This document shows, in pieces, positions 9,417-37,418 of a stretch of 41,308 bases of DNA. The stretch is taken from NCBI GenBank assembly GCA_947452315.1, contig CANGCX010000014.1, positions 1-41,308 of the forward strand, written 5' to 3'. Position numbers and translations under genes: made by a program. Source of the DNA: Opitutia bacterium (lineage in GTDB: Bacteria > Verrucomicrobiota > Verrucomicrobiia > Opitutales > Opitutaceae). Each line of letters starts with the position of its first letter. Positions within the stretch are counted from its first letter, which is position 1. The notes under the pieces are model-generated. The model saw only the letters and a list, made by a program, of their open reading frames with translations. It searched no databases and was not told the DNA's origin.

Positions 9417-9451
9417 AGGGCCGCGTCACCACGCGGCCCTTTTTATTTTTT
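9417..9451 (+). terminator. rho-independent terminator after sucCD
   Basis: A perfect 9-bp stem, AGGGCCGCG (9417-9425) with CGCGGCCCT (9432-9440), closes a six-base loop and is followed by TTTTTATTTTTT. The opposite strand has no U-run after the hairpin, so it acts mainly for sucCD. The last U bases overlap the stop codon of the convergent RND gene. Confidence 0.92.
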
Positions 9452-15500: not shown

Positions 15501-15601
15501 ACCGGCAGCAAGCGATAAGCCATGATGCCCGACAGCAACAACGCGACCATGAGGAGGCTCGTCGCCACCGGTCGCAGAATAAACGGACGTGAGGGATTCA
15601 T
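12524..15601 (-). CDS. RND multidrug efflux permease, MdtB-like
   Basis: A 1025-residue RND permease, a paralogue of its downstream neighbour with the same length and architecture. Helix-4 aspartates are at 401-402 ([14 protein letters not shown]), and helix 10 reads [18 protein letters not shown]. It resembles MdtB. In E. coli MdtB and MdtC form a heterotrimer driven through MdtA and TolC, and the same arrangement is likely here. ATG 15601 lies two bases after the adaptor stop. No outer-membrane factor gene is found in the operon or elsewhere in the window. Confidence 0.93.
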
Positions 15602-15603
15602 CC

Positions 15604-16848
15604 TTACTTGGTGGCCCCGCCCTTGCCGCCTTTACCGCCCTTGCCCGAGCCCTTCGTCATGCCGCCGGGCGCCATGGGCGGCGGAGGATTTTGGCCATCT
15701 TTTTCGACCATGATTACGAGGCGGCCTTCGCGCAGTCGATCCACGCCTTCAATGACCACGCGCTCGCCGCCCTCGAGGCCCTTCGCAATGGATTGCATAG
15801 ATCCATCTGAGGGCCCGATAACGATGTCGCGCACTGTGGCCTCATTTTTTTCGTTTACTAAAAACACATAAGTGCCGCGCGAACCGAATTGGACCGCGGC
15901 GCTGGGGATCACAACCGCTTTGGTCAACGTGCGCACCCGGAGCCGGACATTGACGAATTGATTGGGGAACAGGCGTTCATCGGCGTTGGGAAATTCGGCC
16001 TTCAAGCGCAGCGTGCCGGTTGTTAGGTCAATCTGGTTATCCACCGTGCGCAAAACGCCGGAAGCGAGTAGCGTCTGCTCATTACGATCCCAGGCCTCGA
16101 CAGGCATCTGTTCACCAGCGCGGAGCGGCTCGACGACTTGGCGCAGATCCATTTCGGGCACGGTAAAGGAAACCGCCATGGGTCTAGTCTGCGTGATCAC
16201 GACTAGACCTTTGGTGTCGGCGGATCGGATAAAATTACCCGCATCGACCTGCCGAAGGCCGAGACGACCAGCGATAGGGGCTTCAATCTTGGTGTAAGCG
16301 AGCTGACGGCGGGCATCGTCAACTTGCGCTTGATATGCGGCTTGTGCACCCTCGCGATCCGCGACGAGGGCTTGTTGCGCCTCAAGTTGCTGGGACGAAA
16401 TCAAGGCTTGCCCACTGAGTTGCTGAAAACGCTCGAGGTCGGCACGCACCGTGCGAAGCTGGGCGGCGTTCTGTCGCATCTGTGCCTCCATCTGAGCGAG
16501 ACGAATTTTATACGGGGCGGGATCGACCTCGGCGAGCAACTGCCCCTGCTCGACGGACTGGCCCTCGGTGAAGGCCACGCGGAGCAGCTCGCCGTCCACG
16601 CGACTGCGTACGGTCACGATGTTGAGCGGTTGGACGGTTCCGATCGCGCGAAGTTGGACGGTGAGGTCTTGGCGCTTTACGACTTCAGCGCGAACAGGGG
16701 TTGGCTGGTTGCTGTTACGCTGGCGCCAGGGGTTACCCGTGACCGGCGGCGGCGTGCGCAGGCCAAAATACCCGACTCCCCCAGCAAAAATTAAGGCGAC
16801 GACTGAGTATAATAACCAAGGGCGACGGCGTTGGGGTGCTTGCGACAT
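15604..16848 (-). CDS. RND periplasmic adaptor (membrane fusion protein), MdtA-like
   Basis: A 414-residue adaptor that would link the two pumps to an outer-membrane channel. Residues 12-30 are a hydrophobic anchor or signal ([20 protein letters not shown]). A lipoyl/barrel-sandwich hybrid half follows ([20 protein letters not shown]), then a coiled-coil hairpin at about 115-185. The second lipoyl half is [17 protein letters not shown], followed by beta-barrel and membrane-proximal domains. The C-terminus has a Pro run ([10 protein letters not shown]) followed by a Gly/Lys repeat ([13 protein letters not shown]) that is not usual for the family. First gene of the efflux operon; no regulator is adjacent. 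Confidence 0.92.
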
Positions 16849-17020
16849 ATATAAAGATGAAAGTTAGAATCACGCGGTCCGCAATACGGCCGAGTTACCC
16901 GGACAGACGACCAACGTTACCCCTTCGTTGCTAGAAGTTTTGTTAAAAATCTTACAACTGCCGCGGCGGGGGCTCGTTTCAACTCTTGCCGGCTGGGTCC
17001 GTTTCTCGAAATGTGCGCCC

Positions 17021-18046
17021 ATGCGCCTCACCCCACGCCGAATCCTCGCCCTAGTCGCCACTTTGCTTGCGACCTCACCCTTCAGCGCCCTCGCCTCCAC
17101 TGCGGAAATGACTGGCGCGGCCCAAAAATTCCTCGCTGCGCTCGATTCCGCGCAACGCTCCCGGGCCGTCTTCAGCCTGGCCGGACCCGAACGCGAAAAA
17201 TGGTTCTTCGTCCCCATCAAGCGCGACGGCCTCACGTTCAAAGACATGACGCCCACGCAACAAGAACTCGCGCGCGCCCTGCTCCGCTCCGGTTTAAGCC
17301 AACGCGGCACCGCCCGCGCCGAGACGATCATCACCCTCGAAAACGTACTTCGCGAAATCGAAAAAGACCCCGTTCGCCGCGATCCCACGATGTACTACGT
17401 GACGATTTTTGGTGATCCATCAGCAGCCGCGCCATGGGGTTGGCGCTTTGAAGGCCATCACCTCTCGCTTAATTTTACGATTTTTGACGCCAACCACGTC
17501 GCCGTGACGCCATCCTTTTTTGGCACCAACCCAGCAGAAGTCCGCGCAGGCCCGCAAAAAGGCACTCGCGTCCTGGCCGAAGAAGAAGACCTCGGTCTTT
17601 CTTTCGTAAACACGCTCGATGCCACGCAACGAGCCGCCGCCATCATCGCTGTAAAAGCCCCTAACGAAATCGCCACCAGCAACAAAGCTCGCGTCGACCC
17701 TCTAGCCCCCGCCGGCCTCCCTGCCACGGCGCTCACCGCCGCTCAACGCGACCAACTCCGCACCTTACTGCAGCTCTATTTTACGCGCTACCGCGCCGAA
17801 ATCGCCGACCCTGCCCTCACCGAAGCGACCAGCCAAAACCTCGATAGCCTCCACTTTGCTTGGGCCGGCGTACTCGACCGTAGTGCGGGCCATTATTATC
17901 GCATTCAGGGCAAAACTTTCGTCGTCGAATTCGACAACACCCAGAACGAGGCCAACCACATCCACACGGTCTGGCGCAACTTCGCGGGCGACTTCGGCCA
18001 CGACGTCCTCGCCGCGCACTACGCTCACGAGCACGCGAAAAAATAA
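17021..18046 (+). CDS. secreted DUF3500 family protein
   Basis: A 341-residue protein with a signal peptide (residues 1-25, RRILALVATLLATSPFSALAS). The mature part matches the DUF3500 pattern: an early helix with ALDSAQRSRAVF, WFFVPI, GLTFKDMTPTQQELARALL, a YYVTIFGDP segment, then GWRFEGHHLSLNFT. The end has FHFAW-like sequence and the family hallmark FVVEFDNTQNEANHIHTVWRNF with DFG. The function of DUF3500 is unknown, although the closing His/Asn-rich stretch suggests a metal or ligand site. The frame is open back to 16928, but the signal peptide fixes ATG 17021. It is divergent from the efflux operon. Confidence 0.85.
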   Translation: MRLTPRRILALVATLLATSPFSALASTAEMTGAAQKFLAALDSAQRSRAVFSLAGPEREKWFFVPIKRDGLTFKDMTPTQQELARALLRSGLSQRGTARAETIITLENVLREIEKDPVRRDPTMYYVTIFGDPSAAAPWGWRFEGHHLSLNFTIFDANHVAVTPSFFGTNPAEVRAGPQKGTRVLAEEEDLGLSFVNTLDATQRAAAIIAVKAPNEIATSNKARVDPLAPAGLPATALTAAQRDQLRTLLQLYFTRYRAEIADPALTEATSQNLDSLHFAWAGVLDRSAGHYYRIQGKTFVVEFDNTQNEANHIHTVWRNFAGDFGHDVLAAHYAHEHAKK

Positions 18047-24633: not shown

Positions 24634-25536
24634 GTGGGTAACTCCTCTTTTCAAATCGGCGTCGATGGTGGCGCGACCAAGACCGAGTGCATCCTCGTCG
24701 ATGCCGCCGGCGCCATCGTCGCACGCCACCTCGCTCCAGGCTGCAACGCCAACATCACTGGCACCGAAGTCGCCGCCGCCACGCTCACCGCCGCCCTCGC
24801 CGCGCTCCACGCTCAACTCCCATCAGCCAACCTCACCGCGACGCATTTATTCATGTCCGGTGTGCCCGCATTCTGGACCGAGTTCGCCGCGACACTTACC
24901 GGCTACGGCCGCGTAACCGCCGCGCCCGATTCCCTTCCGACACTCGAACTCGCCACCAACGGTGCGCCCGGGCTCGTGATTCATGCCGGCACGGGGTCAT
25001 TTGTCGCCGCCCGCGCGCCCGCGGGCGGCGTCCACTACGCCGGCGGCACGGGCTGGCGCTTCGGCGATCCGGGCAGCGGCTACGAACTGGGCCGCCGCGC
25101 CATCGCCCGCGCATTGTTGGAACTCCAGGGCTGGCTACCTGCCTCGCGGCTCGGCCCCACCGTGCGCGCGCACACGCAACTAGGCGACGCCGCCGATGCC
25201 CGCGCGATCACGCGCTATTTTTACGCCCACGCCGAGCCCAACCGCGTCATCGCCGCCCTTGCCCCCTCAATCCTGCGCCTTGCTGAAGAGGGAGACGCCC
25301 CCGCTCATCAAGTGCTAATCGAATCTGCCACTGAACTTCTAGACCTCGCCTCGCACGTCGCCGCAAAACTTTTCCCAGAAACACCACCGGCCTCGATTAC
25401 GACTGGCCTCAGTGGCGCCTTGCTCACCCATCCCGCCGTGCTCGCCGCGCTCAAAGCCCGCACTTCGCTTCCACTCACGCCGATCACCGCCGCGCCTATC
25501 GAAGGCGTGCGACGCTTGCTCGCGCGATCCGCTTGA
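24634..25536 (+). CDS. BadF/BadG-type kinase, probable N-acetylglucosamine or muramic-acid kinase
   Basis: A 300-residue protein of the ASKHA fold. The phosphate-1 motif is IGVDGGATKTECILVD near the N-terminus, followed by NANITG. The second phosphate and sugar region reads IHAGTGSFVAARA, then HYAGGTGWRFGDPGSGYELGRRA. This is the pattern of NAGK and MurK-type kinases that phosphorylate GlcNAc or MurNAc in the cytoplasm. The frame is open back to 24511, but the sequence before 24634 has no homology-like character, so GTG 24634 is chosen. The NagB-PIG-L gene 8 kb away could use its product. Confidence 0.82.
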   Translation: MGNSSFQIGVDGGATKTECILVDAAGAIVARHLAPGCNANITGTEVAAATLTAALAALHAQLPSANLTATHLFMSGVPAFWTEFAATLTGYGRVTAAPDSLPTLELATNGAPGLVIHAGTGSFVAARAPAGGVHYAGGTGWRFGDPGSGYELGRRAIARALLELQGWLPASRLGPTVRAHTQLGDAADARAITRYFYAHAEPNRVIAALAPSILRLAEEGDAPAHQVLIESATELLDLASHVAAKLFPETPPASITTGLSGALLTHPAVLAALKARTSLPLTPITAAPIEGVRRLLARSA

Positions 25537-25569
25537 GTTCGGTGGGGCCCGCCTCTCCTGATTTTTTTC

Positions 25570-26052
25570 ATGCTCGTTCGTTTCACCAAAAACACCCCGT
25601 CTGATTCTGCCGACGCCCTTATGTGCCTCCGCAAGGACGACACTCGCACAAAGGGTAAGATGCCCAAGCAGGCGATTCTCCCGCACGTGGCGTTTCATTT
25701 CGTGATCGAAACCACCCTCGGTTGGAGCGACGGGTTTTTCGGCCAGATCGCTGATGGCGCCGACTTCGCTAGCGTGACGGCGAAATTTCAGACGGCGAAA
25801 AAATCGCCCGTGAAAATTCCGCGTCTCCGCCAATGCGAAGCGTTGGTCGCCTGTCTCGCCGCCGAGCAATGGGGTGGCGCCAGCGAACCCGCCGCCTTCG
25901 CCGTGAAACTCGCCGCTGCCTGCAAAAAAGAACGCGTGCCGACACTCCCGCTCACGCCCGAGGAACTCACCCGCGTGCGCACCGCGCTACGTGAATTCGG
26001 CGCCGCGTGGCGCCCACTCTCACCCGGGCATTCTCTCGAGCGGAGGTTCTGA
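25570..26052 (+). CDS. conserved-looking protein of unknown function
   Basis: A 160-residue soluble protein, 33 bases after the kinase gene and in the same direction, so likely co-transcribed. It is rich in Ala, Lys and Phe, with an N-terminal part MLVRFTKNTPSDSADALMCL, a middle part with LGWSDGFFGQIADGADFASV, and a helical C-terminal half. There is no signal peptide, membrane helix or motif I can name. The codon bias matches real genes of the window, which supports it as coding. Confidence 0.65.
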   Translation: MLVRFTKNTPSDSADALMCLRKDDTRTKGKMPKQAILPHVAFHFVIETTLGWSDGFFGQIADGADFASVTAKFQTAKKSPVKIPRLRQCEALVACLAAEQWGGASEPAAFAVKLAAACKKERVPTLPLTPEELTRVRTALREFGAAWRPLSPGHSLERRF

Positions 26053-26087
26053 TTTTTTCTTTGGCCGCACGCGACCGGCGCCAAGTC

Positions 26088-27302
26088 TTAACCTTTCGCC
26101 GGCGGCAACGTGATTTCACCCGCGGCGACGCGGTGTAAAAACAGCGCAACCACCTGGGCGCGGGGCGCGATGGTCTCAACGCGGCAAAACTCGCGGTTAC
26201 TATGCAGATTATCGCCAATGGGGCCGACCCCGTCGAGGTTGGGTAGACCACCAGCGGTGAGAAAATTACCGTCGGAGCCACCCCCACCGTGCACCCACGT
26301 AAACGGCGCCACGCCAACATCGGCCGCTGCGCGTTGCCATTCGGGAAATACAGCTTCTTCAGCCGGGAGACATTCCTTGGGAGGGCGATTAAAGCCACCC
26401 TTGAGCGTGAGCTTAATGCCGTCGCGAGTGTTAAAACGTTCTGCGATGGCGTGGAATCGCGCCAGCAGCGGTGCTCCATCGGTGACTTTGGTGATGCGGA
26501 TATCGATCTCTGATTCGGCAAAGTGCGGGACCACGTTGGTGGCGGCGGTGCCACCGCGGATGTTACCGACGTTAACCATGACATCAGCCATCTCGGAAGG
26601 GATTTTCGCCGCCTCCAATAGAAACTCGGCAAGAGCGAGAATGGCGCTGCGACCATCGTTGGGAACTTTAGCGGCGTGGGCGGCGCGGCCGTGACAGGTA
26701 GCAACAATTCCACCGGTGCCTTTGCGAGAATGGATGATATTGCCGTTAGGGCGGCCGGGCTCGAAGACGAAACCGAATTGGTGTCGACGGGAGGCGGCGC
26801 GAAAAAGATCCACCGTGCCGTGCGAGCCGGTTTCTTCATCGGGCGTGAGTAGCACCTCCCAACCAACTTGTGCAGCGTGAGGTGTAGCCTCGAAGGCTTG
26901 GAGCGCGGCAAGAAGTGTGACGAGGCCACCCTTCATATCGGCAGTGCCGGGGCCGTTGAGCGTGATGGCGTCGAGCCAGCGGCAGGTTTGAAACGCGTCG
27001 TCGGCTTCGTAGACGGTGTCGTAGTGACCGCAAAGCATAACTTGAGTGGGTGCGCTCGGGCGCTGGCTAATACTAAGAGCGCGCGAGCCGGGAGGATTGA
27101 AGCCGGGTGCATCTGTCACCAGTTCGGTGATCGTGGCGGCGGGGAAGGCTTGCGCAAAATCAACACGGAGCGTTTCGCGCATCTTCGCAAGACCCGCGGC
27201 GTGACCGGAGCCGGAGTTGATGTTAGCCCAGCGCTCAAGGAGCGCACCGAGTTCAGGCGTGCGGGAGGGGAGCGCGGCGATGGAGGGAGGAACGGAAGCC
27301 AT
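26088..27302 (-). CDS. M20-family metallopeptidase, carboxypeptidase G2-like
   Basis: A 404-residue zinc peptidase. The metal site is visible: His93 with Asp95 (GHYDTVY), bridging Asp122 (GTADMKGG), and the catalytic pair Glu156-Glu157 (TPDEETGSHGT). A later histidine near the C-terminus lies in GDNLHSNREF. A dimerisation domain is inserted in the middle (GRAAHAAKVPNDGRSAI). The family includes carboxypeptidase G2 and aminoacyl or dipeptide hydrolases. No signal peptide is present, so it probably acts in the cytoplasm. It lies 15 bases behind the DUF1460 gene and is likely its operon partner. Confidence 0.9.
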   Translation of the reverse strand: MASVPPSIAALPSRTPELGALLERWANINSGSGHAAGLAKMRETLRVDFAQAFPAATITELVTDAPGFNPPGSRALSISQRPSAPTQVMLCGHYDTVYEADDAFQTCRWLDAITLNGPGTADMKGGLVTLLAALQAFEATPHAAQVGWEVLLTPDEETGSHGTVDLFRAASRRHQFGFVFEPGRPNGNIIHSRKGTGGIVATCHGRAAHAAKVPNDGRSAILALAEFLLEAAKIPSEMADVMVNVGNIRGGTAATNVVPHFAESEIDIRITKVTDGAPLLARFHAIAERFNTRDGIKLTLKGGFNRPPKECLPAEEAVFPEWQRAAADVGVAPFTWVHGGGGSDGNFLTAGGLPNLDGVGPIGDNLHSNREFCRVETIAPRAQVVALFLHRVAAGEITLPPAKG

Positions 27303-27317
27303 GAAACCAAGAGGTAA

Positions 27318-28313
27318 TCAGAAGCCCGCGCCGTTGGGCAAGGTCACGCGCGGGGCGTCGGGGCCATCGAGCTGACGGAGTTGAGCAAGCGGATCATCGG
27401 TGAGTCGGAGAAATTTGAAACCGACGAGACGTTGCTTGGCGCCGGGCGCGGCAGCTTTTTCGCGGGAGCGGGCGATAAATTCCGAGATCGGTTCTTCACG
27501 CACGGCGGGTTCAGCAGAGTGTATCAAATGAACCGTGCCGTCGGGGCCGTGCGCGATAAGGCCGGTGTGACCGACCCAGGCGTTACCGCCGTAGATCTCG
27601 GCGTTGGGGTGGCCGCCGGGGGTGATCGAAGCGCGAACTACGTTGACGAAATCACCGTCTCGCAAGTGAGGGAGCGCGGCATCCAGAGCGTCCAGCGGAA
27701 TGTAAGTGTCGCGGAACAGCTCGAAGGGGACGGAAGTCTTGAGGCCATAGCGGCCGAGGAGAAATTTGGCGCGATCGATTTTCTCTTCGAAGGGTACGGC
27801 TTTGGCCCCAGCGAGCTCGGTCGTAAGATCGCGTACGAGCCAGCGGTTAGACAAATTCCAATCGGCCTCGGTGTAATGATTACGGGAGGCAACACCGAGG
27901 TGGCCGTCGCGGTAGCGGATGCGTTGAAGTAGGCGAATGAAACCGGTCCAGTCGCGAGTAAGCGCCATAGCGTAGATGTGCTCGGTGAAGACCAGGCAGT
28001 CGCTCTTGCCGAGGCAATAGATCGGCTGCGGGTCGTAGGTCTCAAATGGCATTTCCCCGAGCAAATAAATCTCGTAGGGCTGACCGATGTTTTTGCGCGC
28101 GAGGTGAACGACCCGGCGGCGCAGATCGGGCTCGCTGGCCTGGAGGTACGCGAGGTAACGGCCGGTTTCGGCCTCGGTAAATTGATAGAGCGGCTTGGCG
28201 AGAAGCGGCGCAAGCGGATCAGCCGTCGTTGCAGGAGCCGTGGATTCAGCGGCGAGCAATCCGCAAGCAGCGAATGCACAGACGACGGGCAGGCAGAGAG
28301 AGCGGAGCGTCAT
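27318..28313 (-). CDS. secreted DUF1460 protein, N-acetylmuramoyl-L-alanine amidase-like
   Basis: A 331-residue protein with a signal peptide (MTLRSLCLPVVCAFAACGLL). It carries the DUF1460 signature: YLLGEMPFETYDPQP, then the presumed nucleophile Cys106 in GKSDCLVFTEHIYA. RIRYRDGHLGVASRNHYTEADW follows, and a histidine lies in the later VGHTGLIAHGPDG. Members have an NlpC-like cysteine-hydrolase fold, and one Bacteroides member has been described as a muramoyl-alanine amidase, so a periplasmic role in wall fragment cutting is plausible. It follows the TonB receptor gene but lies beyond its terminator. Confidence 0.87.
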   Translation of the reverse strand: MTLRSLCLPVVCAFAACGLLAAESTAPATTADPLAPLLAKPLYQFTEAETGRYLAYLQASEPDLRRRVVHLARKNIGQPYEIYLLGEMPFETYDPQPIYCLGKSDCLVFTEHIYAMALTRDWTGFIRLLQRIRYRDGHLGVASRNHYTEADWNLSNRWLVRDLTTELAGAKAVPFEEKIDRAKFLLGRYGLKTSVPFELFRDTYIPLDALDAALPHLRDGDFVNVVRASITPGGHPNAEIYGGNAWVGHTGLIAHGPDGTVHLIHSAEPAVREEPISEFIARSREKAAAPGAKQRLVGFKFLRLTDDPLAQLRQLDGPDAPRVTLPNGAGF

Positions 28314-28321
28314 GAAAAAAA

Positions 28322-28357
28322 GAAAATAAAAAGGGGCGATCCGGTCGGGATCGCCCC
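28322..28357 (-). terminator. rho-independent terminator after the TonB receptor gene
   Basis: The 10-bp arms GGGGCGATCC (28333-28342) and GGATCGCCCC (28348-28357) pair perfectly around a five-base loop. Read on the - strand, the stem is followed by TTTTTATTTTCTTTTTTT, which runs up to the DUF1460 start codon. It should end most receptor transcripts while allowing some readthrough. Confidence 0.9.
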
Positions 28358-28380
28358 CGTAAAGGAGAACTCAACAGCGT

Positions 28381-31300
28381 TTAAAACTGACCCGTGATAC
28401 CGAATTTCAAAGTGCGCGGCACGATCCAGATGCTGCGTGTGCGAGTTTGTTCAAACATGTATTCTTCGGGGCCCTGCTGAGCGATGTTGTTGAGGCTGAT
28501 AAATGCCTTCGTGTCGTGGTAGATTTCATAGGTGAGACCGACATTCATGACAGTCCAATCTTTGCGGTAACGGTTGCCGTTGCCGGGCGCGGTCAAGCTA
28601 TAGGTCACGGGATATTTGCCCGTGTAGTTGACATCGAAGGAGGCGCCAAATTTGCGATAATTATAAAGCAGGCCGACGTTGTAGGCGCGAGGGATGAAGC
28701 CCGCGACCTGACCTGGATTGAAACCAATCGTGCCAGCAAACTTACCCTTAGCCTGGAGATAAGTATAGTTGGCGCGAGCCGTGAGGCCCTTAAGTAATCC
28801 CGGCAAGAAGGTGAGGCGTTGGCGGTAATCGAATTCGAGGCCCTTGTAGGTAGCGTCGCCGAGATTCAACGGCTGGATAATCTCGTAGCCTTCATAGAGG
28901 CCCTCAAAGCCGTTGTCGTTACCGGCGCCAACGATTTGCCCGGAGCGTCCTGCGGAACCGATGTAATCGGTGATATTTTTCTGATAACCGCGGACGGTAA
29001 CCATGCCGGTCTTGAAGTAATACTCGAGTTTCAGATCAAGGTTCTTGCCGAGCTGGGGCTTGAGGGCGGGATTGCCGATGGTGAGCGTGCGGGCGGCGTC
29101 GCTGGCTGTAGCGGCGGTGACAAGCGAAGCCAACGGCGCACGACCATAGCTGGTGGACCAACTGGCGCGGGCCTTGAGGTTGGAAGTTAAATCGTAAGCG
29201 AGGTGGATACTCGGGAACGACTTGGTGTAGCCGCCATCAACTGCCAGGCGGCCATAATCCATCTCGGCGCGTTTGAAGTGATCGGGTTGAGCAGCGATCG
29301 TGGTGGTACGAGCGCGAAAATACGTGAACGTGTCGGTTTTAACATCTTCCATGCGAACGCCACCGAGGATCGCCAAGCGGCCAACCTTGGTGCTGGCCTG
29401 GATATAGGCAGCGTCGACGCCTTCTTCCATGATGCGTCGATTAGTGTATTGCTGCGTAGCCGTAAAATTTACGTCTTCATACCAGAGGGCGCTGTTGCCC
29501 AACGTGGTACTAATAGCAGCGGGATCAACCACAGGAAGGCGTTTGCCGCCACTGTTTTGGCGCTCAAACTCAGTCAACGGCATGAGACCCGAGGTGGGCA
29601 ACACGGAGCCAACCACGCCGTACCAACGACGCGGTAATACGGGCCGATTGTTAACGCGACGGTTAACCGTATCGAGCCCCGTTTTTAGCGTAATCGGCAA
29701 AGCGGTTGGAAGCAGGTAGCTCACGTTGACGTTGGCGCTAACTTCGTTGGTGTCCGTGACGGTATCACGTTTATTAAACACCGTGGAGGTTACGGGCACA
29801 GGTTGCGTGGTGGTATTGGCCGCGGAGGTAACGAAGGGCGTGTAGCTGGCCGCGTCGTAGACATTCGCGCCACTGGTGGGCGTGTAGACTTGGCCACGGG
29901 GATTTGAGTAATCGAGGATAAAGCCGATGGCGTCTTTGGTCCGCATGCTCACAGTGCCGTTTTCGCGCTGACGACCGGCGCCAGAATTCCAGTGCGTATT
30001 ACTCCAGCGGTAAGCGTGATCCACTTTGAGACGACCCCAATTATGCTCGAAAGCGAGGGTGCCGGTGGGATTTTTGCTCGTGAAAGAATAGCGCTGAGGA
30101 TTGAGCCGCATCTGGGCGGCGCCGACGGCCACGCTGCCTGGTTGGAGCGTGGTGTTGTTCACCGGCATGAATTCGATGCGGTTGGTCGTGTATCCGGATT
30201 TAATACCGCCCGTAGGATTAGTCTGCGGATCATAAATCGTTAAGTTGCTCGCCAACCAAGGATTCACGTCGGTGTAATTAAAATACGGTTCCGAGCCGGC
30301 GTTATACAGAAAACGCAACGAGACCAAAGTGGCAGGCGACCAGCGGTAATCGGCGCGAGCGCTGAAGCCGGTAAGGAAGCGATCATTCAAACCACTTTGA
30401 CGGGTGTAATCACGCAACTGGGCGAGTGAATTGGTGGTGTTTTCGTAAAGAAGGACATCTTTGTCGTGCGGGTTGAGCACTTCTTGGTAAGAAGCGGTGA
30501 TGGCTATGCCAAGGTTGCGACTACCGCCAAACGCATCGAATACTTCGGTGTAGCTACCGCTAAAATCAGGACGCAACGGGCGCTCGGAGACCGTGTAGTT
30601 GCGATCCGACCAAGACGGAAACCAGCGACCACTTAGGCCATAGCTGAAGCGACGTTTTTCCTTCATCGCGAGTGGCGAACGCGTCTTGAGGTTGAGTTGA
30701 CCGCCAAGGGAATCAGCCCGCTTGTCGGGCGTCTGGCCAGCGATGATCTCAACCGCTTCATACATCGAACCGGAAAAAGAATGCAGGGTAGCCGTGCGGC
30801 CATCACCACCCACGCCTGTCGATGACATACCATCAATATTAAGGCGCGTGTAACTAGCCGGTAGACCGCCGATACTCACGTTGTTAATAAGATTATCCTC
30901 ATCCGTCGTGAACGTGATGCCGGGCATACGCGAAACGAGTTCGCCGACGTTTTGAGTAGGTAGCACACCCCACTCGTCAAAAGCCGTGACGTTTTTGACA
31001 TTGGCTGCATTGCGCTGCTCGGTAAGCGCCAGAGCCTGACCTTCACGTTGCGTCTCGACGGTGAAAGCTGCCATGGCAATTACTTCCGAAGATCGCAGGA
31101 CCGCGTCTATTCGCGCTATTTGGCCAGATGATACTACAACGCGCTCCCGGCTTTCCGCGAAACCAGTGTAGCTGATCACGATCTCCTGCGTACCAGCGGG
31201 GATGCCTTGAAAATTGAAGACGCCCGCGTTGTCGGTGAACTCCGTACGCTTGAGCACAGGGATGCTCACCGTGGCACCTTGCAAAGCATTCTTGGTGCCC

Positions 31301-31455
31301 ACACTCGTGACCGTACCCGTGATATTACCCGTGGCCATCGACTCAGCGGCAAAACTGGGTGAGGCCGCAAGGACCAGCATGACTAATAAACTAACAACGC
31401 CACGCCAAAGGCGGACGGCCAAACTACGAGCAGAGCTGACGGTTTGATGGTTCAT
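28381..31455 (-). CDS. TonB-dependent outer-membrane receptor
   Basis: A 1024-residue receptor. Residues 1-37 include a signal peptide (LLVMLVLAASPSFAAES). Residues about 40-125 form a carboxypeptidase-regulatory-like domain (ITGTVTSVGTKNALQGATV). The plug follows at about 145-270, with NVGELVSRMPGITF and NIDGMSSTGVGG. The rest is the 22-strand barrel, ending in the aromatic FGITGQF typical for outer-membrane insertion. Such receptors in Verrucomicrobiota often import oligosaccharides, but no SusD partner or polysaccharide enzyme lies beside it, so the substrate is unknown. An AraC gene lies upstream and DUF1460/M20 genes downstream. Confidence 0.93.
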   Translation of the reverse strand: MNHQTVSSARSLAVRLWRGVVSLLVMLVLAASPSFAAESMATGNITGTVTSVGTKNALQGATVSIPVLKRTEFTDNAGVFNFQGIPAGTQEIVISYTGFAESRERVVVSSGQIARIDAVLRSSEVIAMAAFTVETQREGQALALTEQRNAANVKNVTAFDEWGVLPTQNVGELVSRMPGITFTTDEDNLINNVSIGGLPASYTRLNIDGMSSTGVGGDGRTATLHSFSGSMYEAVEIIAGQTPDKRADSLGGQLNLKTRSPLAMKEKRRFSYGLSGRWFPSWSDRNYTVSERPLRPDFSGSYTEVFDAFGGSRNLGIAITASYQEVLNPHDKDVLLYENTTNSLAQLRDYTRQSGLNDRFLTGFSARADYRWSPATLVSLRFLYNAGSEPYFNYTDVNPWLASNLTIYDPQTNPTGGIKSGYTTNRIEFMPVNNTTLQPGSVAVGAAQMRLNPQRYSFTSKNPTGTLAFEHNWGRLKVDHAYRWSNTHWNSGAGRQRENGTVSMRTKDAIGFILDYSNPRGQVYTPTSGANVYDAASYTPFVTSAANTTTQPVPVTSTVFNKRDTVTDTNEVSANVNVSYLLPTALPITLKTGLDTVNRRVNNRPVLPRRWYGVVGSVLPTSGLMPLTEFERQNSGGKRLPVVDPAAISTTLGNSALWYEDVNFTATQQYTNRRIMEEGVDAAYIQASTKVGRLAILGGVRMEDVKTDTFTYFRARTTTIAAQPDHFKRAEMDYGRLAVDGGYTKSFPSIHLAYDLTSNLKARASWSTSYGRAPLASLVTAATASDAARTLTIGNPALKPQLGKNLDLKLEYYFKTGMVTVRGYQKNITDYIGSAGRSGQIVGAGNDNGFEGLYEGYEIIQPLNLGDATYKGLEFDYRQRLTFLPGLLKGLTARANYTYLQAKGKFAGTIGFNPGQVAGFIPRAYNVGLLYNYRKFGASFDVNYTGKYPVTYSLTAPGNGNRYRKDWTVMNVGLTYEIYHDTKAFISLNNIAQQGPEEYMFEQTRTRSIWIVPRTLKFGITGQF

Positions 31456-31635
31456 CGGTAGGTAGTGTTATAACAACCCGCCCGCAGGGAAAATTCCCAC
31501 GGTGGATCTAGGTGGTTAGAATATGAAACAGATTAATCTTTATTAGCCCACCTCCAAGACGAAATCCAGCTGACCACACGCCTAGCACGATATTTAGAGT
31601 AAGCTAAACAGACCAACTGGCGTTTTTGTTAAAAA

Positions 31636-31664
31636 ATACATCAATTCTGTCCATCCATACATCA
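31636..31664. promoter_or_regulatory. two direct repeats, possible AraC-type operator
   Basis: ATACATCA occurs at 31636-31643 and again at 31657-31664 on the + strand (TGATGTAT on the - strand). The starts are exactly 21 bases apart, or two helical turns. AraC-family proteins often bind such paired half-sites. The repeats lie 22-50 bases behind the AraC gene and about 180-210 bases before the receptor start. They are short, so chance is possible. Confidence 0.35.
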
Positions 31665-31685
31665 TCGTGGATACTCGAAGCTGCG

Positions 31686-32630
31686 CTAACGGCGTTCCTT
31701 CACCCACGACCTACCCGGCCGGCCAGCTGGCGCCGCCCGGCCGCTATGCCGATACGCCAATGGTGACACGCCGTAGGCCAACCTAAACGCTCGGCTAAAA
31801 CTATAAATCGACGCGAATCCACATTGCTCCGCGATTTCAGAAACTCGCTGAGGCCCCAGCCGCAACAACCCACAGGCCCGCTCCAGCCGCAATTGCCGTA
31901 GATGCCGACCAATACTCACCCCACACGAAGCCCGAAACCGCGCCCGCAAATGACTCGGGCTGATTCCAAGGGAGCGCGCGATCTCACCAATCCCGGGTGA
32001 CTCACCGCTGCGCTGCGCGAGTTGGTTGACGCGCAACTTTAATCCAGACTGCGGTGATACGGACGCGGTTTCCTCGGGCGCTGCCGCCGGCTTCAACCGC
32101 CGCAAACGCTCCAACAACACCGCCAGCAATAGCACCGGCAAATCCGCCGTGCGTTCGGTTTCATACGTAGCCACCAAATCCGCCACGAGCGCGATTAAGC
32201 GCGGCGTTAGACGCAACGGCCTAAATCGGAGCCCTGCCAAAGCCTCGGGCGCTTCCAACTCAAAGGTCACAAATAACCACGAAAGAGAGGCCTGTTGCGC
32301 CTCTGCATAGTGATGAAATTGAAACGGAAACACGAGCAACGCCTCACCCGCTTTGAGCCGTATCGAGCGCTCGTCCACATAGACGGTCACTGCTGTTTTC
32401 AATGCACAGATTAATACAAAGCGGTGATGCAGCGCCCGCCCGCGCCGTGGCTTGTTCAAGTCGATCGCCGTGCGCCGCTGAAAACACACGATGTTGTCGG
32501 GCAACATGAGCGCTTTTGCTGATCGCCCCTGCATTTGATGCAGCGGCTGCGGTAGACGCGCGACCAATTGCTTAAGATCGGGAGCAGCAAGCGTTGGCAT
32601 AATTGTTAAAAACATCGTCATTTTTGCCAT
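31686..32630 (-). CDS. AraC-family transcriptional regulator
   Basis: A 314-residue regulator. The N-terminal 180 residues form a cupin-like sensor (ALHHRFVLICAL, then LKAGEALLVFPFQFHHY). The C-terminal about 90 residues hold two helix-turn-helix units: IGEIARSLGISPSHLRARFR and then VSEIAEQCGFASIYSFSRAFRLAYGVSPLAYR. AraC proteins mostly activate genes for sugar or metabolite use when bound to a ligand. It is divergent from nagB and upstream of the TonB receptor, so either could be its target. The start is uncertain: ATGs occur at 32630, 32621, 32615 and 32600. Confidence 0.9.
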   Translation of the reverse strand: MAKMTMFLTIMPTLAAPDLKQLVARLPQPLHQMQGRSAKALMLPDNIVCFQRRTAIDLNKPRRGRALHHRFVLICALKTAVTVYVDERSIRLKAGEALLVFPFQFHHYAEAQQASLSWLFVTFELEAPEALAGLRFRPLRLTPRLIALVADLVATYETERTADLPVLLLAVLLERLRRLKPAAAPEETASVSPQSGLKLRVNQLAQRSGESPGIGEIARSLGISPSHLRARFRASCGVSIGRHLRQLRLERACGLLRLGPQRVSEIAEQCGFASIYSFSRAFRLAYGVSPLAYRHSGRAAPAGRPGRSWVKERR

Positions 32631-32646
32631 TTGTACCGAAGCCCGC

Positions 32647-32664
32647 GAGCTCTATTATAAGCTC
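32647..32664. promoter_or_regulatory. inverted repeat in the araC/nagB divergent spacer
   Basis: GAGCT (32647-32651) and AGCTC (32660-32664) flank CTATTATA in the 76-base spacer between two divergent starts. The 18-base element is only 17 bases from the farthest-upstream AraC-gene start and 43 bases from nagB. It could be an operator for a dimeric regulator, and its AT-rich centre could also be a -10 element. Confidence 0.35.
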
Positions 32665-32706
32665 AAACCTCTCCTCGGCGTATCATCCTGCCTTTTTTTA
32701 TTTCTC

Positions 32707-34677
32707 ATGCTCTCGTCGCACCTCATCCCTCGCAGCCGCTACGAACAAGCCGCCATCGCCGTCTATTCGGGCAGTCTTGATGCCTCCCGTGCCGTCGCCG
32801 CAGAAATCGCCGCCCTCATTCGCCAGCGTCAGGCCGAAAAAAAAACCGTCGTCTTAGGTCTAGCCACCGGCTCCACGCCCGTGAGCGTCTACGCCGAGCT
32901 CGTCCGACTGCACCGCGAAGAAGGCCTGAGTTTCGCCAACGTCACCACCTTTAATCTCGACGAATACTACCCGCTCGCACCCGAGCATCCCCAGAGCTAC
33001 CGCGCATTCATGCGCCGCCACCTCTTTGATCACATCGACATCGACCCGAAGCGTACACACCTGCCGTCCGGCACCGTCGCCAAAGCCGAAGTTGACGCCC
33101 ATTGCGCCGCCTACGAAGCCGCTATCCGCGCTGCCGGCGGCATCGATTTTCAACTTCTCGGCATCGGCCGCACCGGTCACATCGGCTTCAACGAACCGGG
33201 CAGCCCGCGCCACTCCCTTACTCGCCTCGTCACACTCGATCCCCTCACCCGCCGCGACGCCGCCGGCGACTTCGGCGGCAACGACGCCACTCCGCGCCAC
33301 GCTCTAACCATGGGTGTGCGCTCCATCCTCGACGCCCGTCGCGTCGTCTTGATGGCCTGGGGCCAACATAAAGCCGAAATCGTCCGCACGGCCATTGAAG
33401 GCGAGGTTAACTCTCAAGTTTCCGCCTCCTTCCTCCAAGAGCACCCTGCTGCCCTCTTTGTTCTCGATACGGCCGCGGCCGACGCCCTCACCCGCAACCG
33501 CACGCCATGGCTTATCGGCGCCCTCGAGGAACAAGGCCTTGCTTGGGACAACCGCATGATCCGACGCGCCATCCTTTGGCTTTCACAACTCCGCGGTAAG
33601 CCCATTCTCAAGCTCACCGACGACGACTATAACGAAGCCGGCCTTCAAGACCTCATTCACCTCCATGGCTCCGCCTACGAGACCAACCTTATCGGCTTCT
33701 ACGAACTTCAACACACTATCACCGGTTGGCCCGGCGGTCGTGATCCCAAAAAATCCAAACCCGGTGATGCTCCCGTCCGTCCACTGCGCGGAACCGGTGC
33801 CTCTGTTTTCCCCAAACGCATTCTTATCCTCTCACCCCACCCCGACGACGACGTTATCGCCATGGGCGGCACCCTCTGCCGTCTCGTTGATCAAGGGCAC
33901 GAGGTCCATATTGCTTACGGCGTTTCGGGTGCTAGCGCCGTCTCCGACGAAGCCGTGTGGCGCCTGCTGGCCTTCGTTCGCGACAGCGGGCTCGCCGACT
34001 CCGCCCAAACCACTCACCTCTCCAGCCTCACGAGCCAACTTAGTCACGGCACCACCTTACCTCAGACGCCCGAACTGCTGCGCTGGAAAGCACTCGTTCG
34101 CCGCCACGAAGCCACCGCCGCCGCCCGCGTCTGCGGTGTGCCCGAAACCCGACTGCATTTCCTCAACCTACCGTTTTACAACGCTGCCCCACGCAGTCGC
34201 GCCTACGGCGCCGCCGACGTAAGCCTAGTAGGCGATCTCCTCGCCCAACTCCAACCACACCTCATCTACGCCGCCGGCGATCTCAACGACCCTCACGGTA
34301 CACACCGGCTGTGCCTGCGCATCCTCCGCGACGCCTTCGGTCAAGCCGCCACCGCCCGCGCGCCTTGGCTCGCCGCCGCCGAACTGTGGCTTTACCGCGG
34401 GGCATGGAATGATTGGCCCGTTGACGAAATTGACCTCGCCGTCCCACTGAGCCCTCAAGAAGTCCTGCGCCGCCGCCGCGCGATTTTCCGACACGAAACG
34501 CAAAAAGACCAAGCTCTCTTCCTGGGCGAAGACCGTCGTGAATTCTGGCAACGTACCGAAGACCGCAGCCGCCGTCTCGCCGAAGCCTACAATACCCTAG
34601 GCCTCGCCGAATACGAAGCCATCGAAGCTTTCAAACGCTACGCGCCCGAAGATTTCCTGCGTTCCGCCGCCTTCTAA
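32707..34677 (+). CDS. nagB: glucosamine-6-phosphate deaminase fused to a PIG-L deacetylase domain
   Basis: A 656-residue two-domain protein. Residues 1 to about 290 are NagB, which converts glucosamine-6-phosphate to fructose-6-phosphate and ammonia. Key residues include Asp85 (FNLDEYYPL) and His158 (GRTGHIGFNEPGS). Residues about 370-640 are a PIG-L/LmbE-type zinc deacetylase with HPDDD at 378-382 and the second histidine motif NDPHGTHRLC. The same fusion is known in Bacteroidetes and Verrucomicrobiota. It suggests that the second half removes the acetyl group from a GlcNAc derivative, although no nagA is in this window to compare. ATG 32707 lacks a Shine-Dalgarno. Confidence 0.92.
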   Translation: MLSSHLIPRSRYEQAAIAVYSGSLDASRAVAAEIAALIRQRQAEKKTVVLGLATGSTPVSVYAELVRLHREEGLSFANVTTFNLDEYYPLAPEHPQSYRAFMRRHLFDHIDIDPKRTHLPSGTVAKAEVDAHCAAYEAAIRAAGGIDFQLLGIGRTGHIGFNEPGSPRHSLTRLVTLDPLTRRDAAGDFGGNDATPRHALTMGVRSILDARRVVLMAWGQHKAEIVRTAIEGEVNSQVSASFLQEHPAALFVLDTAAADALTRNRTPWLIGALEEQGLAWDNRMIRRAILWLSQLRGKPILKLTDDDYNEAGLQDLIHLHGSAYETNLIGFYELQHTITGWPGGRDPKKSKPGDAPVRPLRGTGASVFPKRILILSPHPDDDVIAMGGTLCRLVDQGHEVHIAYGVSGASAVSDEAVWRLLAFVRDSGLADSAQTTHLSSLTSQLSHGTTLPQTPELLRWKALVRRHEATAAARVCGVPETRLHFLNLPFYNAAPRSRAYGAADVSLVGDLLAQLQPHLIYAAGDLNDPHGTHRLCLRILRDAFGQAATARAPWLAAAELWLYRGAWNDWPVDEIDLAVPLSPQEVLRRRRAIFRHETQKDQALFLGEDRREFWQRTEDRSRRLAEAYNTLGLAEYEAIEAFKRYAPEDFLRSAAF

Positions 34678-34692
34678 TCGCCGCGCAGGCGC

Positions 34693-35844
34693 TCAGATCT
34701 TCACGATCCAGCGCTTGCGCCACATCAGCCCAGCAGCGGCGAGAAACACGCCGACAAACGCCAGCGCGAACCCCAGCGAAGCGTTGAGCGGACTAAAATA
34801 AGGCGTAAAAGCCCGCGTGTAGATCCATGCCTTCAGCGTTACTTTTGCACCCGCCGTATCGCTCCACGCAATCAAGCCGAGCATCCGCGCCACCAGTCCC
34901 GCGCCTACGAATATCACGATCGCATTCACGCCCAGCACTATCAGCGGCGTTGCCCAACGCCGCCACCCACGCACATCCATCACCCAATAAAATACCGCCA
35001 GCCCCACGCTCGACGCACCTGCCATGAATAACGCAAATGAGCTGGTCCAAAGATTTTTATTAATCGGCAGCCATAAATCCCAAATCAGTCCGACCCCCAC
35101 CAGAGCGATCCCCGCACCCATCAAAAGTGCCGTCCGCATCGCACCGGCCACCGGCACACGCAGGATTCGTCCCGCCCACGCCCCGAGCACCACAGTCGCA
35201 ATTGCCGCCAACGTGGAAAAAATTCCCTCCGGATCAAAACCCGGCGCCGGCGCCCCACTCCAAGTATGGCCCGCCAACACGTGCGCATCAATCCACCACG
35301 CGAGATTTCCCACCGCCTCGTCGATATGCCCCGCGCCATAACCCGGCACCGGGAAAAATTTCAATAAGGCCGCCGACCCGGCCAGCAACCCCACGACCCA
35401 CAACACCTGCCCACGCCAACCCACCCACAAACAAATCGCACCCGCCGCCGCATAACACACCCCAATACGCTGCAATACCCCAGGAATGCGCAAAGAACCG
35501 ATCGCCAGCGTATGCGTCGGCCACAAGCCAAACGGAAACGCCCCGAGTAACAACCCAAGCCCAAAAATAATCGCCGCCCGCCGCCCTACGTGCCGAAACA
35601 GCGCCGCAGGAGCTTCGCCTGCTTCAACCCGCCTCGCCCACGATAACGTCATCGCGACGCCCATAATCCACAAGAACCCGGGGAAGATCATATCAGTGAG
35701 CGTCCACCCATGCCACGCCGCATGCCGCAATGGCGGATAAACGTGCCCCCAAGAACCCGGATTATTGGCGAGCAACATCCCCGCAATCGTCGCCCCACGA
35801 AACGCATCCAAAGAGATCAACCGAGCCGGAGGATAACTATTCAT
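34693..35844 (-). CDS. DUF5009/HGSNAT-like membrane acyltransferase
   Basis: A 383-residue protein with about ten hydrophobic helices. Its start, RLISLDAFRGATIAGMLLANNPG, followed by HAAWHGWTLTDMIFPGFLWIMGVAM, is the hallmark of the family that includes human heparan-alpha-glucosaminide N-acetyltransferase. That enzyme moves an acetyl group across a membrane onto a terminal glucosamine. The conserved histidine in the HAAWHGW region suits this. In bacteria the substrate is not known; a cell-envelope amino sugar is a reasonable guess given the NagB-PIG-L and PBP4-type genes on either side. Its stop is convergent with nagB, 15 bases apart. Confidence 0.85.
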   Translation of the reverse strand: MNSYPPARLISLDAFRGATIAGMLLANNPGSWGHVYPPLRHAAWHGWTLTDMIFPGFLWIMGVAMTLSWARRVEAGEAPAALFRHVGRRAAIIFGLGLLLGAFPFGLWPTHTLAIGSLRIPGVLQRIGVCYAAAGAICLWVGWRGQVLWVVGLLAGSAALLKFFPVPGYGAGHIDEAVGNLAWWIDAHVLAGHTWSGAPAPGFDPEGIFSTLAAIATVVLGAWAGRILRVPVAGAMRTALLMGAGIALVGVGLIWDLWLPINKNLWTSSFALFMAGASSVGLAVFYWVMDVRGWRRWATPLIVLGVNAIVIFVGAGLVARMLGLIAWSDTAGAKVTLKAWIYTRAFTPYFSPLNASLGFALAFVGVFLAAAGLMWRKRWIVKI

Positions 35845-35867
35845 AAAAAAGGGGCTAGAATCGCAGA

Positions 35868-37418
35868 TCAGTCCCGCGAACCAGCGTAGCGGGCAAGGAG
35901 GGCGGCAATTTCATCGAGTTCACGGCTTGCGGAGCGACCAGGGGCCGCCGGGTAGCGATTCAGCATCAGGCTAAATGCCAGTCGCTCATTCGAGAGCGAG
36001 GTAACGTAGCCCGAGAGTGCCGTCGTCCAGCGCAACGTGCCGGTCTTCGCTTGGACTTTGCCTTCGGCAGACGTGCCTTTCATGCGGCGCCTTAAAGTCC
36101 CGTCTACACCCGCAATCGGTAACGATTCCGCAAACACCTTAGCCTCGCTGTGTTTCGCCATAAATTCCAGCAACGCCAACGTCGCGGTTGCCGTCGTGAG
36201 ATTATTACGCGAAAGGCCCGAGCCTTCGTCAAAAATCACGTCGCTCACCGGCAGCGCGTGGCGCGTCAAAAATTCCCGCAAACCCGCCAAAGCGAGCTCT
36301 TCAGAGCGCATCATCGCGGACGTCGTCGCCGTGCGCCGTAATTCGCCAAGATGCGCGAAAATCAGATCGGCTTGCAGATTTTGCGACTGTTTCATCATCA
36401 CGCCGAGATAATCACGCAGGGGAGGTGAAACGACTTCTCCGAGCCGCACGTCGCTCGTCGATGATGCTGAAGCTTCCGGCCAACGCACCCCTCGAGCCGT
36501 GCCGCCAACGTTGATGCCAGCCCGCGCGAGTGCCGCCTTCAACCCCGCTGCAAACCACGCCGCGGGCCGAGGCACGGTCGACTCGGTCAGCTCGGGTTTG
36601 TCGCCGAGCGGTAGCTCGCCGAAAATCTGCACCGTCGTCTCGCCAGGCAAGCGCAACAGACTGATCGTGCGCGTCCCGCCGACTGACGTCGTATTGGTGC
36701 GATTGTCAAAAGTAAGTCCAGCGAACGGTTGCAACCACTCAAGCGTGCACGGCGCGCCAACGCTCGGCCCAGGCGAGACGCGCACGTCGACGTAGTTGTC
36801 GTTCACTGAAACCGCAGAAATTTCCGCGCCGTAATAATCATTAATGTCATCGACCGTCCAACTGGCGCCAAAGGGTATAGAACGAAAATAAGTCGCATCC
36901 GCAACGACGTCTCCCGTGATGCGACGCACGCCAGCGTTTTTTAGCACCGCAACATACGAATCAAAGGCCGCTAAAAAATCCTGCTGCAAACGCCGCGGGT
37001 CACAGCTCGGATCACCGCGCCCGCTCACGATTACGTTGCCCTGAATCGTGCCCGCCGCATCAACCGGCGCCGAAGCAAAGACCGGCGTGCGCACACGGTA
37101 ATCGCCGCCGAGGGTGTCAAGCGCGAGCGCCGCGACGTAGAGTTTGGCGTTGGAACCAGGGCTCAAGCGTCGATCCGGCGCGTGCGCGTACAGCGTGCGA
37201 CCCGTATCAAGGGAGACGATTTTTACGCCCCAGACTGCGGCCGCGAAACGCGGATCGCTCACCTGCGCTTCGAGCCGCGACTGTAAATCTGTAAGCGAGG
37301 CCACCGGCGGGACGGGCGGCGCGCTCGCCGCCGTGGAAACCGGAGCGGAGCGGAGCGGAAAACTCAGCCCCAAGAAAATCCCAGCTAAAATCAAAATCGG
37401 CGCGCGCGACGTTTTCAT
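35868..37418 (-). CDS. dacB: D-alanyl-D-alanine carboxypeptidase/endopeptidase, PBP4 type
   Basis: A 516-residue peptidase S13 penicillin-binding protein that would trim or cut peptidoglycan cross-links in the periplasm. A signal peptide (ILILAGIFLGLSFPLRSA) is at residues 7-24. The three catalytic motifs are complete: SxxK at Ser89-Lys92 (SNAK), SxN at Ser403-Asn405, and KTG at 458-460. The long insert between SxxK and SxN, with VSVNDNYVDV, is typical of the class. The frame is open to 37568, but the signal peptide fixes ATG 37418. It lies 23 bases behind the acyltransferase start on the same strand, so dacB is probably the first gene of that operon. Confidence 0.93.
   Translation of the reverse strand: MKTSRAPILILAGIFLGLSFPLRSAPVSTAASAPPVPPVASLTDLQSRLEAQVSDPRFAAAVWGVKIVSLDTGRTLYAHAPDRRLSPGSNAKLYVAALALDTLGGDYRVRTPVFASAPVDAAGTIQGNVIVSGRGDPSCDPRRLQQDFLAAFDSYVAVLKNAGVRRITGDVVADATYFRSIPFGASWTVDDINDYYGAEISAVSVNDNYVDVRVSPGPSVGAPCTLEWLQPFAGLTFDNRTNTTSVGGTRTISLLRLPGETTVQIFGELPLGDKPELTESTVPRPAAWFAAGLKAALARAGINVGGTARGVRWPEASASSTSDVRLGEVVSPPLRDYLGVMMKQSQNLQADLIFAHLGELRRTATTSAMMRSEELALAGLREFLTRHALPVSDVIFDEGSGLSRNNLTTATATLALLEFMAKHSEAKVFAESLPIAGVDGTLRRRMKGTSAEGKVQAKTGTLRWTTALSGYVTSLSNERLAFSLMLNRYPAAPGRSASRELDEIAALLARYAGSRD

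Follow-up and report, generated by a model that had tools for sequence, protein, structure and literature searches.

Receptor half of a conserved, split locus with a probable role in peptidoglycan salvage in Opitutaceae

What is known of cell-wall recycling comes mostly from proteobacteria and from a few oral bacteria; in Escherichia coli the pathway comprises AmpG, NagZ, AnmK, MurQ, NagA and NagB. In Tannerella forsythia, a nine-gene murein salvage cluster, Tanf_08345-08385, has been reported to form one transcriptional unit (PMC7670621). Here we describe a stretch of 41,308 nucleotides from an Opitutia bacterium of the Opitutaceae (contig CANGCX010000014.1; the whole stretch is called the window), in which genes for an M20 peptidase, a DUF1460/AmiA-like amidase, a TonB-dependent receptor, an AraC regulator, a NagB-PIG-L fusion, a NagX-like transferase and a PBP4-type peptidase lie together. 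Since this set is conserved with wall genes in relatives, and the second half lies on another contig (C19) of the same genome, the window likely holds the half with the receptor, out of a split peptidoglycan salvage locus that is conserved in Opitutaceae and takes up and recycles wall fragments. This reading draws on gene content and order, conservation, co-occurrence, co-loss and shared sequence elements.

Gene families were assigned by Pfam and NCBIfam profile searches with curated cut-offs. The window genome (G000) is a metagenome-assembled genome of 2.77 Mb in 175 contigs, 84% complete. The NagB-PIG-L protein served as query against 76 related genomes, and 27 genes of the window were mapped onto 30 retrieved loci. 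A second sample, obtained by a genome scan with an amidase alignment, holds 28 AmiA loci, 21 of Opitutaceae type (titled Opitutaceae, Opitutae, Opitutia, Opitutus, Lacunisphaera, Didemnitutus and one Verrucomicrobia) and seven from other phyla; as its search relied on two peptide patterns taken from Opitutaceae, it does not amount to a survey of other phyla. Six of the 21 loci come from near-identical species, and the two samples overlap (L102 corresponds to G002 and L114 to G048, for instance).

A TonB receptor lies directly upstream of AmiA, on the same strand, in all 21 Opitutaceae-type loci, and M20 directly downstream in 19; the other two are L122, where the contig ends, and L114, which has no M20 within 10 kb and an M20 adjoining AnmK on another contig. 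Among the 13 genomes of the genus, M20-AmiA-TonB-AraC-NagB-PIG-L forms one stretch in seven (G000, G001, G002, G003, G006, G009 and G012) and is spread over two contigs in G008, part of it is lost in G005, G007 and G010, and no NagB-PIG-L match was found in G004 and G011. In G048, from another genus, AmiA, two receptors, AraC, NagB-PIG-L, NagX and PBP4 follow the order of the window. Five long loci (L113, L117, L111, L123 and L107) display, wholly or in large part, the order PBP4-NagX-(NagB-PIG-L)-AraC-TonB-AmiA-M20-AnmK-(MurQ)-GHL10-AmpG-AmpD-like-NagZ-epimerase. The loci of G018 and G032 (L076 and L077) carry PBP4-NagX-TonB-AmiA-M20 on one strand, the NagX-like gene again adjoining PBP4, and this block adjoins AnmK, GHL10, AmpG-like and AmpD-like genes and an enolase-superfamily epimerase/racemase, with a NagZ-like gene in L077. 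The neighbourhood for salvage of wall fragments or amino sugars proposed by a sequence-only reading of the window is thereby supported, its clustering being strongly conserved in relatives and joined there to hallmark peptidoglycan-recycling genes.

The window itself holds the receptor half; the other half lies on contig C19 (L097), in the order epimerase-NagZ-AmpD-like-AmpG-GHL10-MurQ-AnmK. This block lies well inside its contig, as the window M20 gene does in its own, with BadF adjoining, so that the split looks real; it is common to the closest species. AnmK (C19:17227-18321) reaches 465.6 bits, over its cut-off, while MurQ (C19:16250-17116), with GKRP_SIS domains, scores 297.1 bits against a curated 302, a value exceeded by its homologues in G018 and G007. 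The AmpG- and NagZ-like proteins of L097 are 70% and 73% identical to those of L077, for which the best models (score/cut-off) are the AmpG family (189/350) and beta-N-acetylhexosaminidase (NagZ; 182/207, with the GH3 Pfam match over cut-off); L077 AmpD scores 42/143, and the epimerase fits best the N-acetyl-D-Glu racemase DgcA (215/400), then L-Ala-D/L-Glu epimerase (151/343). The C19 half-locus also contains an alpha-L-rhamnosidase gene (L097:5399-8383). Both halves are contiguous in G006, G007 and G001, G007 being without receptor and amidase, and the gene adjoining M20 is AnmK in G001, G006, G007 and G010.

Across the 76 genomes, PF07313 (AmiA-like) was found in 11 and AnmK over cut-off in 12, with both in 10, and MurQ of at least 200 bits in 13, 11 of them also with AnmK. 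Counted by genus, AmiA and AnmK are confined to the same four genera out of 63 (hypergeometric 1.7e-6, a value that assumes independent genera, which these are not). AnmK is present in 9 of the 15 AmiA loci having at least 4 kb beyond AmiA, the six without it in reach being five close relatives of the window and L114. At the locus in G005, G007 and G010 the amidase and receptor are gone and an AraC remnant is left between M20 and NagB-PIG-L; PF07313 was found nowhere else in these genomes (96, 68 and 82% complete), and in G010 a 57% identical receptor lies in pieces away from the locus. As G007 and G010 retain AnmK, MurQ and M20 despite this loss, the import part and the cytoplasmic part of the locus look separable. 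In G005, AnmK is missing as well, and MurQ has no strong match.

Within the window, the open reading frame (ORF) list and profile searches confirm the position and family affinity of all eight genes named by the sequence-only reading, which had overlooked the ORF at 25570-26052. Its suggestion of several transcription units also agrees with gaps and strands, from which the units would be TonB-AmiA-M20, AraC, NagB-PIG-L and PBP4-NagX. The features are as follows.

24634-25536, plus strand: BadF/NAGK-family sugar kinase (PF01869, 74.9 bits; NagK model, 73 against a cut-off of 370)
25570-26052, plus strand: uncharacterised ORF of 160 residues, coding-like codon composition, no Pfam match
26088-27302, minus strand: M20 metallopeptidase (77.1 bits)
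27318-28313, minus strand: DUF1460/AmiA-like N-acetylmuramoyl-L-alanine amidase (PF07313, 81 bits against a cut-off of 27)
28381-31455, minus strand: TonB-dependent outer-membrane receptor (Pfam barrel and plug)
31618-31652, minus strand: candidate AraC operator 5' of the receptor (conserved core 31628-31645)
31686-32630, minus strand: AraC-family regulator (PF12833 and AraC_binding; true start maybe at 32600)
32595-32629, minus strand: second candidate AraC operator, between AraC and NagB-PIG-L (conserved core 32605-32622)
32707-34677, plus strand: NagB-PIG-L fusion (PRK02122 model, 886 bits)
34693-35844, minus strand: NagX/HGSNAT-like membrane N-acetyltransferase (NagX model, 177 bits against a cut-off of 480; no Pfam match at E 0.001)
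35868-37418, minus strand: PBP4-type D-Ala-D-Ala carboxypeptidase/endopeptidase (S13; 244.6 bits against 107.8)

The amidase has an N-terminal export-type sequence by eye and matches structures 2im9 and 2p1g. In addition to its PF07313 score, it keeps the Cys/His/His residues of the family: Cys106, His249 and His265 are invariant in six homologues and, by analogy with the Cys-His-His site reported for DUF1460 (PMC10318531), would form the catalytic triad. The M20 protein shows no signal peptide by eye, its nearest solved relative being carboxypeptidase G2. In L077, an amidohydrolase domain and PBP4 share a single open frame of 999 residues (14722-17718). The best PDB matches of the BadF kinase are a hexokinase, N-acetylglucosamine (GlcNAc) kinases and a kinase for N-acetylmuramic acid (MurNAc) and GlcNAc. 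A NAGK-type kinase occurs at the locus only in the closest species (the window, L031-L034 and L101-L105), where ORF 25570-26052 travels with it (present in L031-L034), and the BadF kinase is on a separate contig in G001, G005, G006, G007, G010, G018, G032 and G048. We therefore rejected it as a locus member, and the kinase that the sequence-only reading had counted in the set appears to be a bystander. Elsewhere in the window (9450-16848), two tandem ORFs of 1025 residues adjoin a membrane-fusion protein gene; their size and neighbour suggest resistance-nodulation-division (RND) pumps.

Many TonB receptors are encoded in these genomes. Relatives of the window receptor recur beside NamZ, named in Pfam as an exo-beta-N-acetylmuramidase. 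In G042 (L050), a 67% identical receptor is flanked by an amidohydrolase gene on one side and a beta-lactamase-NamZ fusion on the other, beyond which comes a broken-motif NagB-PIG-L; in G036 (L142), a 60% identical receptor and a 72% identical AraC lie divergent to a gene with 71-79% identity to the fusion of G042. These receptors are thus tied to a wall sugar without the amidase. The fusion itself (L050:11128-13671, L142:13278-15707) joins a beta-lactamase-family domain to NamZ, seen by Pfam in L050 and by similarity in L142. No SusD gene was found beside the window receptor, whose neighbours are AmiA and AraC, so the arrangement is not that of a SusCD polysaccharide utilisation locus. The receptor is a candidate muropeptide importer. 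The receptor gene also shows signs of an allele switch: L103 and L104 have about 73-92% DNA identity to the window per 500 bp outside the receptor and 62-74% across it. The L103 and L104 receptors share 94% identity with one another and 90-91% with the receptor of the more distant species L108; the window receptor resembles those of other genera (71% L141, 67% L050) more closely than those of L103/L104 (62%).

In relatives, AraC adjoins NagB-PIG-L and/or the receptor, and in the window two copies of a conserved element flank it, one towards NagB-PIG-L and one before the receptor. A motif sampler, which returns one site per sequence, was run on 14 loci; the block upstream of TonB has an information content of 24.4 compared to 11.4-12.3 in six shuffles (16 bp), a value inflated by relatedness. 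The receptor-side site scores 19-20 out of 20 in all six held-out AraC-receptor loci (L101, L104, L105, L113, L118 and L128, the first three close to the window), with shuffles at 16 or less; all four receptors without a visible AraC neighbour (L115, L076, L050 and L141) reach 12-15; the upstream DNA of L106 is too short for a score. With two mismatches allowed, the window contains exactly two matches, for 0.08 expected. A strict pattern gave one site each in 7 of 18 genomes, always before this receptor, and none with the reversed control. A looser pattern applied to 26 genomes gave sites flanking AraC on either side in eight of the nine genomes with the AraC-receptor pair, one at the locus in the ninth, G036, one beside NagB-PIG-L in G005, G015 and G046, and none in G018, G032 and G042. 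The AraC-side site scores 17-18 out of 20 in 14 of 17 wall-type loci, 16 in L112 and L117 and 13 in L111, compared to 12-17 in other AraC/NagB-PIG-L loci (15 in L142), where random sequence can reach 16; L113 and L118, missed by a stricter string search, are recovered by score. A motif search confined to the 140 bp before AraC gave a weaker signal, as the second site falls within the presumed first AraC codons; AraC may instead start at the ATG at 32600, inside that site. The paired elements suggest that AraC would bind both.

The NagB (glucosamine-6-phosphate deaminase) part of the fusion keeps GHIGFNEP and the Asp of FNLDEY, which we take to be catalytic, and has Thr where 2bkv has Asn in GIGRNGH. 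The metal motif of the PIG-L part is intact, with SPHPDDD (PHPDD) and HGTH. Counted over distinct loci with a full-length gene, this motif is intact in all 24 fusions of at least 69% identity, and its first His is replaced in all 16 at 46-51%. The fusion occurs in 35 of the 76 genomes (32 full length, three in contig pieces). A NagA match of at least 100 bits was found in 20 of these 35 and in 9 of the 41 genomes without the fusion (hand count), so the idea that the PIG-L fusion simply replaces NagA does not hold generally. In twelve related genomes of at least 94% completeness, the fusion is present and no NagA match reaches 100 bits; six hold the intact type (G015, G025, G028, G040, G045 and G048) and six the broken type only (G014, G030, G046, G051, G055 and G065), all of the latter except G065 with a stand-alone PIG-L. 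Since G048 combines an intact fusion, MurQ and AnmK with no NagA match, another protein must deacetylate GlcNAc-6-phosphate there, if the pathway runs. In the window genome, a NagA-like gene (178 bits against 226) lies beside a NagB-like gene on contig C15, with the usual active-site signatures. Owing to this other NagA-like gene, the case for PIG-L as the deacetylase of GlcNAc-6-phosphate is only suggestive. The C15 pair adjoins genes for a DUF7133-cytochrome c protein, an oxidoreductase and a sugar-isomerase-like protein (L061:4953-6712).

A stand-alone PIG-L is nearby in 8 of 14 distant-type loci compared to 1 of 8 close-type loci of other genera (L038-L045), counted without the short contig L059 and the short stretches L020, L021 and L024; complementarity between broken fused and stand-alone PIG-L was rejected as not significant (Fisher 0.07). 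In farther relatives, NagB-PIG-L often keeps AraC and sometimes NagX, with a GH20 hexosaminidase, an SSF/MFS transporter or a stand-alone PIG-L. Related genera also carry a second kind of cluster (L054:8967-18485; L040, L052, L058), which joins AraC and NagB-PIG-L to varying partners, namely a protein of about 470 residues, stand-alone PIG-L, GH20, an SSF transporter and NagX; the 470-residue protein has no Pfam match and looks like a ROK-type kinase by eye.

We infer the following scheme, including its substrates, transport steps, cell locations, operator binding and direction of regulation. AraC would sense a wall-derived or amino-sugar signal, bind the two matching operators and switch on NagB-PIG-L and the TonB-AmiA-M20 operon, and soluble wall fragments would cross the outer membrane through the receptor. 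PBP4 would trim or split cross-links in the periplasm, where the DUF1460 and AmpD-like amidases would strip peptides from (anhydro)MurNAc and GHL10 may cut the bared glycan, as E. coli DigH is reported to do. AmpG would move muropeptides or sugars inward, NagZ and AnmK/MurQ would convert the imported material to GlcNAc-6-phosphate, and NagB-PIG-L would take this via glucosamine-6-phosphate to fructose-6-phosphate, while M20 and the epimerase/racemase would deal with the peptide part. The products could equally return to wall synthesis rather than be burnt. That all of this holds at once, with a muropeptide TonB receptor and NagB-PIG-L under one AraC through two operators, a full recycling pathway, and PIG-L (LmbE-type) acting as NagA, is a tentative proposal in which we place rather low confidence.

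The locus might instead recycle the cell's own wall fragments only, the receptor recapturing leaked fragments or serving something else. AnmK, MurQ, AmpG and NagZ are indeed also the classical own-wall recycling set, and G007 retains these genes without receptor and amidase at the locus. However, a TonB receptor is upstream of the amidase in every Opitutaceae-type locus and relatives of the window receptor lie beside NamZ, whereas the amidase was not found in 65 of the 76 related genomes, nor AnmK over cut-off in 64, although these bacteria presumably have a wall; we consider own-wall recycling alone less likely than not. We consider it unlikely that wall genes drifted into a general neighbourhood for chitin or GlcNAc utilisation, even though clusters of other genera combine NagB-PIG-L and AraC with varying NagX, GH20, SSF/MFS transporter and kinase-like genes (L040, L042, L052, L054 and L058), operator-like sites lie beside NagB-PIG-L in G015 and G046, both without the amidase, and a TonB receptor for GlcNAc has been reported in Caulobacter (PMC13046382). 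The recurring partners are AmiA, M20, AnmK, MurQ and AmpG; no GH18 or GH20 match was found among 31 Pfam-scanned window ORFs (the two 1025-residue ORFs not scanned), nor a GH20 match in the AmiA loci (GH18 was tried in the window only). A chance neighbourhood of housekeeping genes is very improbable: BadF, PurC, CinA and UvrC at the window edges are plain neighbours, but order and co-occurrence are conserved across genera, which already contradicts chance for M20-AmiA-TonB-AraC-NagX-PBP4.

Several observations nevertheless weigh against the preferred explanation, a split salvage locus that takes up and recycles wall fragments. Besides the abundance of TonB receptors, the one adjacent to AmiA is not always of the window's kind: seven of the 21 loci have two (L109, L110, L114, L117, L118, L119 and L128), and L115 has only a type far from it. 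Many enzymes score under curated NCBIfam cut-offs (NagX, NagK, the C15 NagA-like protein, MurQ, and AmpG, NagZ, AmpD and the epimerase of L077). MurQ is absent from G032/L115 and from the L113 locus, and G012 (85% complete), which carries the amidase, gave no match to AnmK or MurQ. The seven AmiA loci of other phyla show none of the other locus genes within the retrieved flanks with the queries used. The operator pattern was derived from the very loci in question, and in its looser form 15 of 35 matches lie elsewhere, with seven matches for the reversed control.

If the preferred explanation is true, wall fragments are a scavenged resource in Opitutaceae, and the receptor is a concrete candidate for active muropeptide import across the outer membrane; the conserved locus also opens the function of the NagB-PIG-L fusion to direct testing. 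We found no paper titled on this locus or on the fusion in the open-licence literature, which is no claim of absence from print.

Relative to the E. coli pathway, AnmK, MurQ (just under its cut-off in the window genome) and proteins resembling AmpG, NagZ and AmpD recur here, together with an enolase-superfamily epimerase/racemase, but in one cluster with a TonB receptor, a DUF1460 amidase, M20, NagX and NagB-PIG-L, and with no NagA in the cluster. The window amidase shares its family and Cys-His-His site with the described DUF1460 amidases (PMC10318531) and differs in its genomic setting. As in T. forsythia, whose unit is reported to serve the use of external wall sugars (PMC7670621), AmpG, MurQ and other wall genes lie together; T. 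forsythia has MurT/MurK (not searched for here), whereas AnmK, DUF1460, M20, NagB-PIG-L, an AraC regulator and an adjacent TonB receptor are found in Opitutaceae. The nag clusters of Caulobacter crescentus likewise join a TonB receptor to amino-sugar catabolic genes; they are described with a phosphotransferase system permease, NagA, NagB and GntR-type regulators for GlcNAc (PMC13046382), in contrast to the amidases and MurNAc enzymes of the Opitutaceae locus.

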